Positions 28,596 to 31,663 of a stretch of 64,000 nt of DNA are shown piece by piece. The notes under the pieces were generated by a model. The model made no database searches. It saw nothing but the letters and a program-made list of their open reading frames with translations, and was not told the DNA's origin. Made by a program: the position numbers and the translations under genes. Source of the stretch: Dyella dinghuensis (lineage in GTDB: Bacteria > Pseudomonadota > Gammaproteobacteria > Xanthomonadales > Rhodanobacteraceae); the NCBI RefSeq assembly GCF_003977615.1, contig NZ_RYZR01000006.1, positions 186,001 to 250,000 on the forward strand, read 5' to 3'. Each line of letters starts with the position of its first letter. The first letter of the stretch is position 1.

Positions 28596-30452
28596 ATGAA
28601 TAGCAAAGCCCACGAGCAACAGTCGGAAATTAAAGCGCTCATCTCCAAGGGTTTGGAGCAGGGCTATCTGACGTACGCCGAAATCAACGATCACCTCCCC
28701 GACGACATCGTCGATCCGGAGCAGATCGAAGACATTATGGCGGTGCTCAAGGGTGTCGGCATTGACGTGCACGACGCTGCCCCCGATGCCGACCCACTGG
28801 CCGACAACGCCCCCGGTGCCGCCTCGGACGATGAAACCGCCGCCGAAGAAGCCGTCGCGCTGCTTTCCGCCGTCGACGCCGAAGTGGGCCGCACCACCGA
28901 CCCCGTGCGCATGTACATGCGCGAAATGGGTACGGTCGAACTGCTGACCCGCGAAGGCGAAATCGCCATCGCCAAGCGCATCGAAGAAGGCCTCACCCAG
29001 GTGCAGACCGCGCTGGCCAGCTTCCCGCTGACCATCGAGCTGCTGCTGGAAGAGTACGACCAGCATCTGGACGGCAAGCGCCGCCTCAGCGAAATCCTGG
29101 CCGGCTTCGCCGACCTCGAGCAGGCTGCCGACGCCGCCCTGGCCGAAGCCGAAGTGATGGCTGCCGATGCCGATGTCGAAGACGAAGAAGACGACGTCGA
29201 AGCCTCCGGCGACGATGAAGAAGCCGGCCCCACCGGCCCCGATCCGGAAGAAGTGAAGCGCCGCATGGAACTGCTGCGCGACTACTACGGCAAATTCCAG
29301 AAGGCCGCCCCCAAGGCGACCGACATCAACGACAAGAAAGTCACCAAGCTGCGCGACCAGATGGCGGAGGAATTCCTCAAGCTCAAGCTGCCGTCCGCGC
29401 TGATCGACAGCTTCGTGCGCAAGCTGCGCGAAGTTGTGGGCGACATCCGTCATCACGAGCGCGTGCTGATGGAAATCTTCGTCAAGCACGTGAAGATGCC
29501 CAAGGCCGAATTCCTCAAAGCCTTCCCCAGCAACGAGGGCAACCTCGAGTGGGCCGAAGAGCTGGGCCGCAAGCGCCAGAAGTGGTCGCCGAACATCAAG
29601 ACCCACCGCGAGCACATCGACGCCGAGCAGGAAAAGCTCGCCTCGATCGAAAAGAAACTGTTCCTGCCGCTGACCGACATCAAGGAAATCAACCGCAGCA
29701 TGTCGGTCGGTGAGGCGAAAGCACGCCGCGCCAAGAAAGAAATGGTGGAGGCCAACCTGCGTCTGGTGATCTCCATCGCCAAGAAGTACACCAACCGCGG
29801 CCTGCAATTCCTCGATCTCATCCAGGAAGGCAACATCGGCTTGATGAAAGCCGTGGACAAGTTCGAATACCGTCGCGGCTACAAGTTCTCCACGTACGCC
29901 ACGTGGTGGATTCGTCAGGCCATCACGCGTTCGATCGCCGACCAGGCACGCACCATCCGTATTCCGGTGCACATGATCGAAACGATCAACAAGCTCAACC
30001 GCATCTCCCGTCAGATGCTGCAGCAGTTTGGCCGCGAGCCGACGCCGGAAGAACTGTCCAAAGAAATGGACATGCCGGAAGACAAGATCCGCAAAGTGCT
30101 GAAGATCGCCAAAGAGCCGATCTCGATGGAAACCCCAATCGGCGACGACGAAGATTCGCACTTGGGCGATTTCATCGAAGACACCAACGCCAGCTCGCCG
30201 ATCGATTCGGCGACGGAAACAGGTCTGGTCGAAACCGTGCGCGACGTTCTCGCCGGCCTCACGCCGCGCGAAGCGAAAGTACTGCGCATGCGCTTCGGCA
30301 TCGACATGAACACCGATCACACGTTGGAAGAAGTCGGTAAGCAGTTCGACGTCACCCGCGAACGCATCCGCCAGATCGAAGCCAAGGCATTGCGCAAACT
30401 GCGCCACCCCAGCCGCTCCGAACAACTGCGCTCGTTCCTGGACATCGACTGA
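28596..30452 (+). CDS. rpoD: RNA polymerase sigma-70 factor
   Basis: The housekeeping sigma factor, 618 residues. Region 1.1 is residues 1-80; region 1.2 starts at [16 protein letters not shown] (about 103); a long acidic non-conserved region (about 180-215, rich in D/E) follows. Region 2 shows [11 protein letters not shown] and the [17 protein letters not shown] block for -10 recognition (about 430-450). Region 4 has [20 protein letters not shown] (about 574-593) for -35 recognition. A strong terminator follows at 30481. dnaG is not next to it in this window. Confidence 0.98.
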
Positions 30453-30681: not shown

Positions 30682-31053
30682 TCAATGCACATCGTAAAAA
30701 AACTGCTCCCGATCCACCTTCCCATCCTTCACGTGATAAACGCAGATTTCCGTCATCACCCTACGCCCAACACCCTTCATCGTCAGATCCAGCGTCATCT
30801 CGCAACTAAACCAATTACCCGCCACCACCGGATCACTCACGTGATTCGCGTGAAGCTCCTCGATCGTCCCTTGGAAGTGGCGCGTCTTCTCATAGATCGC
30901 CTCCAGCCCCTTCACGCTGGGCGCCATGCCCGGCGGCAAACCCTCCGGCTCGATACTCACCGCATCATTCGCATACAACTCGCGCTGCGCCTGCTCGTAC
31001 TTACCCTCGCGACACAACTCAACCAAGCGCTTGGCAATCGCTTCAGTGCTCAT
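30682..31053 (-). CDS. SnoaL-like/NTF2-fold protein
   Basis: A 123-residue cytosolic protein of the NTF2/SnoaL-like fold. The helix-strand pattern AIAKRLVELCREGKYEQAQREL, then YANDAVSIEPEGLPPG, and later WFSCEMTLDLTMKG and ICVYHVKDGKVDREQFFYD are typical of this superfamily. Members range from polyketide cyclases to binding proteins; no catalytic set can be assigned. The ATG at 31053 begins MSTEAIAK; a frame start five codons upstream is less likely. The gene converges on rpoD. Confidence 0.75.
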   Translation of the reverse strand: MSTEAIAKRLVELCREGKYEQAQRELYANDAVSIEPEGLPPGMAPSVKGLEAIYEKTRHFQGTIEELHANHVSDPVVAGNWFSCEMTLDLTMKGVGRRVMTEICVYHVKDGKVDREQFFYDVH

Positions 31054-31342
31054 GCAAATACTCCACATATGGGGATGGGGATCTCGAGCCTAGTCCCAGA
31101 ACCATGACGAAAGAATGTGCCGCCAGACACAGCCAATTCGCCTCGACGCTAGACACCCTGCGCCGCACCGCTTCGATGCTGTAAATCGCCCAACGTGTTT
31201 ACGTAAGCGGGAACAAAATTACGCTGCCTGCCTCCCCGTGCGCCCCCGCACCTCACGCAGCACAAATTCGAATTCATTGCTTTATCATAGGCGTTGCTCG
31301 GATATCGCCCATTCGGTCGAGGCCTGAGCAAAACGTACAAAA

Positions 31343-31663
31343 GGGCCTATAGCTCAACGGTTAGAGCAGGGGACTCATCAAAAAGGTGCCGTCATGCAGT
31401 AATGCGTGAACGGGAACGGGATGAATTCAGGGAAACCTTAGCGACGCGTTCGCGCGGATCGATGGCAACCCTGAGCCAAGCCAGTGGTACACCGCTGGAA
31501 GGTGCAGAGACTACCTGAGGACTTCAGCGTCCTTCATAACAGGCTCGAGCGTCCCGCACCCCACCCGACACGTCGGAGGGTGAAGAGATAGTCCGCGCTG
31601 AAGGGAAACCTTCGGAACACGCGAATCCCTTGGTTCCAGGTTCGAATCCTGGTGGGCCCACCA
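31343..31663 (+). tRNA. tRNA-Ile2(CAU), interrupted by a group I intron
   Basis: Exon 1 is 31343-31378 (36 nt, ends with the anticodon CAT) and exon 2 is 31624-31663 (40 nt, begins AATCCCT and ends with encoded CCA). Joined, they give a 76-nt cloverleaf: acceptor GGGCCTA/TGGGCCC, D stem GCTC/GAGC, anticodon stem GGGGA/TCCCT with loop CTCATAA, T arm CCAGG-TTCGAAT-CCTGG, discriminator A. The short D-loop AACGGTTA and the loop sequence match the minor Ile tRNA read with lysidine at C34 rather than elongator Met. The split is invisible to a search that ignores introns. Confidence 0.93.
31379..31623 (+). ncRNA. Group I self-splicing intron in the tRNA anticodon loop
   Basis: The 245-nt intron follows U36 of the tRNA and ends in the expected terminal G before A37. 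The internal guide GTG (31386-31388) can pair with exon CAT to form P1, with the splice-site U-G wobble. Conserved core elements are present in order: P near 31436 (CCTTAGCGACG), Q at 31471-31482 (CTGAGCCAAGCC), R at 31499-31514 (AAGGTGCAGAGACTAC) and S at 31587-31594 (GATAGTCC), which pairs with R to make P7. GAAGG-GAAA-CCTTC (31610 region) is a GNRA-capped P9. It resembles the Azoarcus tRNA-Ile intron in position, guide and core. No ORF for a homing endonuclease fits inside. Confidence 0.92.

Follow-up and report, generated by a model that had tools for sequence, protein, structure and literature searches.

The tRNA-Ile2 Gene and Its Intron

In the analyzed window, a stretch of 64,000 nucleotides from Dyella dinghuensis, the tRNA-Ile2(CAU) gene at positions 31343-31663 was interrupted directly behind the anticodon (36/37) by a group I intron of 245 nt (31379-31623; table 1). 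The first exon runs from GGGCCTA to ACTCAT (31343-31378) and the second from AATCCC to CCACCA (31624-31663), with 245 bases between them. The region 31366-31615 matched RF00028 with 73.2 bits (E 1.2e-16), above the gathering score of 50 bits; this was the sole gathering match in the window and covered the core of P3-P8 with P4-P6 and P7. Compared with 100 dinucleotide shuffles, the fold of the 321-nt stretch was better by 3.65 sd, and no shuffle equaled it. When joined, the exons gave a 76-nt tRNA with anticodon CAT that was identical at 76/76 positions to the uninterrupted gene of four congeners (L193, L194, L195, and L196), three of which carry this intact gene at the same rpoD locus. These results bore out the preliminary description, which had claimed a group I intron of 245 bases inside tRNA-Ile2(CAU), with a GTG guide, the core elements, and a terminal G, and had proposed a group I covariance search as a check.

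In normal mode, ARAGORN found no tRNA in the window; in intron mode it found the 321-nt gene and misplaced the intron, and its splice sites were rejected. The boundaries thus rest on the empty sites and on group I rules. The internal guide forms a U.G pair at the 5' splice site (T31378 with G31386), and G31623, fixed by the empty sites, is the terminal G at the 3' splice site; the relatives described below are no independent test of this terminal G because the search pattern required it. ARAGORN labeled the joined exons tRNA-Met(cat). We used the name Ile2 because the other two CAT tRNAs of the genome read, by our own reading, as the elongator Met and the initiator, and because the best E. coli matches to the intact gene (81.6%) were annotated as tRNA-Ile in all four listed cases, one of which was inspected and has the anticodon CAT. 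The initiator tRNA of this genome (L030) carries T at position 1, where the usual base is C.

Table 1. Features of the tRNA-Ile2 locus and predicted elements of the intron (window coordinates)
Feature	Position	Strand	Basis or remark
rpoD, conserved neighbor	28596..30452	+	RpoD match in 9/10 other intron-bearing and 3/4 intron-less Dyella loci
SnoaL-like gene (Pfam), adjoins tRNA	30682..31068	-	11/11 intron-bearing and 3/4 intron-less Dyella loci
tRNA-Ile2(CAU) 5' exon	31343..31378	+	Ends in anticodon CAT, U36 at splice site; same as intact genes L193-L196
Group I intron, 245 nt	31379..31623	+	RF00028 73.2 bits; exact empty sites in 4 congeners; no room for an endonuclease gene
Internal guide GTG	31386..31388	+	Pairs with exon CAT 31376-31378 (P1); U.G at 5' splice site; read from sequence
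P2 hairpin, one bulge	31389..31413 (31389-31397/31404-31413)	+	Read from sequence; hairpin here in MFE fold too
P3, encloses P4-P6 and P7.1	31417..31556 (31417-31423/31550-31556)	+	100% paired in 28 chosen sequences; 6/7 pairs invariant
P4-P6 domain	31427..31503	+	
P4	31427-31432/31469-31474	+	28-sequence pair count
P5	31436-31437/31464-31465	+	28-sequence pair count
P5a	31442-31444/31459-31461	+	90.5% paired; two-sided changes at 3 pairs
P6	31475-31477/31501-31503	+	28-sequence pair count
P6a	31481-31487/31492-31498	+	Two-sided changes at 4 pairs
P7, G-binding helix	31509..31593 (31509-31513/31589-31593)	+	Invariant in 28 sequences; drawn from group I rules
P7.1 extension	31514..31543 (outer 31514-31517/31540-31543, inner 31518-31522/31529-31533)	+	Absent from Rfam consensus
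P8	31557..31582 (31557-31561/31578-31582)	+	97.9% paired
P9.0	31595-31597/31620-31622	+	Read from sequence and RF00028 match
P9	31598-31604/31609-31615	+	Read from sequence and RF00028 match
Terminal G	31623	+	Read from sequence; P9.0-P9-G stretch is 31595..31623
tRNA-Ile2 3' exon, CCA encoded	31624..31663	+	Single copy in window at <=3 mismatches

Predicted Structure of the Intron

The predicted structure was counted in 28 relatives chosen for length, difference, exact GATGAATTCAGGG, and exact GACTACCTG. Over 47 pairs in ten helices, 99.1% of the 1316 cells were paired, compared with 31-46% when the structure was slid; the structure had been drawn on the window sequence before counting, which gives it an edge over the slid controls. 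Two-sided cells numbered 63 versus 16.9 in shuffles. Two of the five covariation measures were weaker, namely the pairs with two-sided change (9 vs. 6.5; 8 of 500 shuffles as high) and the pair types (25 vs. 22.5; 48 of 500 shuffles as high). Covariation was silent on P7 because this helix was invariant, and the selection criteria account in part for the lack of variation in P3/P4 and in the 5' strand of the outer P7.1 helix. P7.1 falls within a 34-nt insert of the RF00028 match, between P7 and the 3' strand of P3, and forms one nested stem. Two pairs of its inner helix, which was 99.3% paired, contributed 20 two-sided cells; its outer helix did not vary among the 28 sequences.

P1 is lengthened by the pair C31379-G31385. 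Of the 116 tRNA-Ile2 introns that were parsed, 115 had a GTG within bases 4-34 (86 of the 87 long and all 29 short ones, the miss being a misparse), compared with a chance expectation of about a third by our own estimate. No P10 pairing was seen beside the guide of the window intron; a TT before the guide, which could form P10, was present in 19 of the 29 short introns and is not found in the window intron.

A Sole tRNA-Ile2 Copy and the Decoding of AUA

The genome comprises 12 contigs and is 99.99% complete, and the tRNA family search yielded 48 places with 44 distinct sequences (ARAGORN). Among these 48 places there was no further CAT tRNA, no Ile(UAU), and no intact Ile2 gene. The argument made earlier from a sole Ile2 copy therefore holds, and a second intact tRNA-Ile2, which the same description had named as evidence against its reading, was looked for genome-wide and not found. 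The TilS C-terminal domain is encoded (77.8 bits), indicating that tilS is present. A pattern for intact Ile2 genes matched 37 of 61 genomes and none of the 14 genomes bearing a tRNA-Ile2 intron; 10 of the 61 relatives had neither the intron nor the intact pattern, so the pattern overlooks some Ile2 genes. AUA is rare, with three ATA codons in the eight ORFs that have above-cut-off Pfam matches and none in rpoD. This Pfam-supported count replaced an ATA count in 41 mechanical ORFs (68 in 30), which was discarded because longest-first choice picks antisense ORFs, such as one over rpoD. TilS converts the anticodon loop to lysidine to read AUA, and it would act after ligation. Because only the joined tRNA gives TilS its anticodon loop, splicing should be essential for growth.

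Presence and Absence of the Intron in Dyella

Among 16 genomes of the genus, 11 carried the intron, four carried the intact gene, and one (86% complete) had neither. The compared loci extend only about 1.5 kb, and an RpoD match lay in 10 of the 11 intron-bearing loci. The shared SnoaL-like and RpoD neighbors indicate that, in those loci, a single orthologous tRNA has gained or lost the intron. We propose that the intron, which lacks an endonuclease, is occasionally acquired or lost with precision. A search of plasmids for the intron gave no match.

Two Structural Types of tRNA-Ile2 Introns

A pattern scan that excluded intact tRNAs yielded at least 119 stretches, plus 10 viral contigs, and 145 places were read in 143 of 144 loci (L045 had none). 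Apart from the 116 parsed introns (87 long and 29 short; L156 was misparsed yet still counted among the long), 29 places had no parsed first exon, the causes being contig or locus ends, Isosphaeraceae with another D arm, partial att-like copies, and two seemingly unrelated matches (L061 and L175). Among the stretches listed, the spacing between the R and S elements was bimodal, being 34-45 in short introns and at least 62 in introns with P7.1; the values of L142, L177, and L186 look mismeasured. Short introns had mostly betaproteobacterial record titles, with one Akkermansia MAG and some viral records, and the long P7.1-bearing introns were found in Gammaproteobacteria, some Burkholderiales, and an Opitutia. 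Four introns printed from Isosphaeraceae/planctomycetes were long as well.

Two models were built, R1 (P7.1 type) from 28 of the 87 long cores and R2 (short, Azoarcus type) from 18 of the 29 short cores. The window intron scored 186.5 bits with R1 and 41.9 with R2, its core being among the 28 training sequences of R1. Three phage introns outside the R1 training also scored far higher with R1 than with R2: those of the crAss-like phages cr6_1 (139.5 vs. 45.4 bits) and cr55_1 (132.8 vs. 39.9) and one psbA intron of Synechococcus phage S-SRM01 (138.9 vs. 34.0). They share with the window intron the same kind of P7.1 stem and core; they differ in having endonuclease ORFs annotated beside or over them and, per the annotation, in lying outside a tRNA anticodon loop. 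The other two S-SRM01 introns gave R1/R2 scores of 82.8/28.0 and 38.8/none, so that one of the three scores high with R1. A tRNA-Leu(UAA) intron showed the reverse preference (65.0 vs. 97.3), and the long viral intron L187 scored 113.9 versus 52.8. The Opitutia tRNA-Ile2 intron L108 has P7.1 and scored 128.7 with R1 and 51.3 with R2, and its tree position was with the short type; it may be a hybrid. In two crAss-like phages (L219, 2100-2702; L220, 2072-2581), an opposite-strand endonuclease ORF (HNH in one) is annotated over the 3' part of the intron core.

Known phage introns were tried as relatives. The introns of Twort (54.5, 41.2, and 21.8 R1 bits), SPbeta (50.4), and SPO1 (26.5), which we take to be IA2, scored low, as did T4 outside td (23.0), and Pf-WMP3 gave no R1 match; these known IA2 phage introns were rejected as relatives. 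The T4 stretch with td and nrdB matched neither R1 nor R2, perhaps owing to ORFs in the loops, and so carries no weight either way.

Range in Gammaproteobacteria and Viral Carriers

A search of 369 genomes of the class with R1 matched 58 at E <=0.001. The 25 places with at least 150 bits comprised 24 tRNA-Ile2 introns, including that of D. dinghuensis, and one tRNA-Lys(CUU) intron; a P7.1-type tRNA-Ile2 intron was thus found in 24 of the 369 genomes, among the loci read. Judged from these sequences, a tRNA-Ile2 intron in a gammaproteobacterium is not rare. At 109-119 bits, four places (L264, L265, L266, and L267, around 1501-1700) held P7.1-type introns after the anticodon of tRNA-Thr(UGU), as identified by rejoining the exons to tRNA-Thr(tgt) in three and by eye in L266; in one of these four genomes, an intact Thr(UGU) was matched as well. 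The tRNA-Lys(CUU) intron (L261) is of the P7.1 type, 237 nt long, and likewise lies after the anticodon. The P7.1 lineage was seen with three anticodons, each ending in U, in line with the U.G rule. The one weaker R1 match that was typed (L268) was, by eye, in tRNA-Arg(CCU). In the same 369 genomes, the best R2 score was 108.1 bits, and 17 of the 29 R2 loci (L273-L301) were named Leu(UAA) by the ARAGORN intron mode, which misplaces introns; L298, named Tyr by this mode, reads by eye as Thr(UGU).

Seven viral contigs (L178, L179, L181, L183, L185, L186, and L187) gave a parsed tRNA-Ile2-like gene holding a group I intron, of the long type in L187 and of the short type in the rest; such contigs are possible transfer vehicles, or may contain host DNA. 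In Polynucleobacter (L138, 3191 and 4910), an intron-bearing tRNA-Ile2 is followed 1.7 kb on by an identical copy of 45 intron bases and the 40 following bases, which looks like the att repeat of an integrated element for which the intron-bearing tRNA served as target. An uninterrupted tRNA occurs in tailed phages of Acinetobacter and Stenotrophomonas and is 88-90% identical to the intact Dyella tRNA-Ile2; it is called tRNA-Met in most of the listed records that have annotation.

Lineage of the Intron and Comparison with Known Systems

The tRNA-Ile intron of Azoarcus sp. BH72, of group IC3, shares its host tRNA with the window intron. It is near 205 nt in size, is inserted after the anticodon, has the natural pair GUG/CAU, and self-splices in vitro. 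Its three-base guide and tag can take the forms GMG and CNU, as given in an excerpt of PMC6274277. The two introns differ in P7.1: PMC4498298 gives the Azoarcus intron none between P7 and P3, and uses the P7.1/7.2 found there to separate the IA2 td ribozyme from IC3 Azoarcus. In our comparison, the short betaproteobacterial tRNA-Ile2 introns stand for Azoarcus. The 34-nt insert with its counted P7.1 does not fit the IC3 form, in which P7 and P3 are not separated by such an extension.

Like the window intron, group IA2 introns (T4 td and Pf-WMP3, with those of Twort, SPbeta, and SPO1 taken as IA2 above) have an extension between P7 and P3 (PMC4498298, in part). According to the relevant passage of PMC3428280, the mark of IA2 is P7.1 and P7.2 linked by GUA; the window intron has instead one nested hairpin, and IA2 introns scored at most 54.5 bits with R1. 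IA2 accounts for more than half of the group I introns of viruses and is otherwise notable only in bacteria, as summarized in an extract of PMC11835236.

We constructed a tree of 54 matches from 51 chosen sources on 118 columns aligned to R1, from which the P7.1 columns were removed because P7.1 adds to the R1 lead. It has many weak branches. A tree joining the P7.1-bearing bacterial and phage introns, with L108 left free, was as likely as the best tree. A single clade of all sampled tRNA-Ile2 introns cost 53.9 log-likelihood units and was rejected (AU p 1.5e-5), as was a clade of the gammaproteobacterial and short Ile2 introns (0.006, P7.1 columns removed), although an alignment fitted to R1 may favor rejection of one Ile2 origin. 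An ancestry shared first with the short tRNA-Ile2 introns was thus disfavored, and two ribozyme lineages seem to have colonized one tRNA site independently. The resemblance to Azoarcus noted in the preliminary description therefore stands for the position and the GUG guide and fails for the lineage, given the P7.1 stem, the two model scores, and the rejected clade. The window intron probably does not belong to the Azoarcus lineage; its source appears to be a P7.1-bearing lineage to which phage introns also belong.

Group I introns have been described in tRNA-Ile2 before. Passages of the tRNAscan-SE 2.0 paper report such introns in fMet or Ile2 for 36 genomes, and name for Ile2 Acidovorax and Burkholderia, which are likewise cases of group I introns in tRNA-Ile2 and differ in being Betaproteobacteria (PMC8450103). 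A 2014 review, as excerpted, places tRNA group I introns in cyanobacteria and in alpha- and betaproteobacteria (PMC4033280). In the open-licence literature, we found nothing on a group I intron in the tRNA-Ile2 of Dyella or in its family, and nothing plainly on tRNA-Thr group I introns, tRNA introns of Gammaproteobacteria, or P7.1-type tRNA introns.

Discussion

The tRNA-Ile2 precursor very probably carries a group I ribozyme of a P7.1-bearing, phage-related lineage, at a site that suits group I introns, and would be spliced; from its family, we infer self-splicing. In the proposed mechanism, the GUG guide would pair with the CAU anticodon in P1, a guanosine bound in P7 would attack after U36, and the freed 3'-OH of CAU would attack after the terminal G31623, joining CAU to AAUC. 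As no P10 was seen beside the guide, the tRNA anticodon stem may bring in the second exon in its place, and the nested P7.1 stem may stabilize the core by packing on P7-P3-P8. Group I introns are well served by this site, which follows U36 and lies inside a stem that forms in any case; this would account for the intron lying at the same place as that of Azoarcus.

The three-base guide pairing and the lack of a visible P10 could also fit a catalytic intron that splices poorly alone and depends on a host protein, as some group I introns do according to part of PMC3984707; however, the stretch folds better than its own shuffles, and an IA2 intron of a cyanophage self-splices in vitro as stated in an excerpt of PMC3428280, although this intron gave no R1 match and is therefore not close kin. 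We consider such dependence unlikely. That the insertion is dead and the gene a relic, with another tRNA reading AUA, scarcely deserves credence: ARAGORN in normal mode reports no tRNA here and AUA is rare, but the exons are identical to the intact orthologues, the core is conserved, tilS is kept, and no other Ile2 or Ile(UAU) gene exists among the tRNA places. On the exon identity and sole-copy status, we rejected the pseudogene reading. Its presence in 11 of 16 genus members, without an endonuclease, might suggest that the intron is retained as a switch limiting the tRNA-Ile2 supply in some conditions, but four of the 16 have the intact gene instead, and we regard this role as very improbable.

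As to its history, the chances seem about even that a P7.1-bearing, phage-related lineage specialized on the 36/37 junction of tRNAs with a U-ending anticodon (Ile2 CAU, Thr UGU, and Lys CUU) across Gammaproteobacteria, with the short guide retuned each time, and colonized tRNA-Ile2 independently of IC3, perhaps carried by phage-borne intron-containing tRNA genes. A single origin of all tRNA-Ile2 introns would fit the same site, the same GUG guide, and the likeness of the long and short types in their P4 and P7 letters, but the likelihood cost and the two rejected clades, a result that the R1-fitted alignment may favor, make this improbable.

If two origins are true, two structurally different ribozyme lineages took one junction of one essential tRNA, and the site (U36, a short guide, and a stem pairing anyway), not common descent, would explain the recurrent group I introns. 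The intron would also provide a compact P7.1 ribozyme in a natural tRNA context that is comparable with Azoarcus, and Dyella would offer, within one genus, exact presence/absence pairs in which the cost or benefit of such an intron could be measured.
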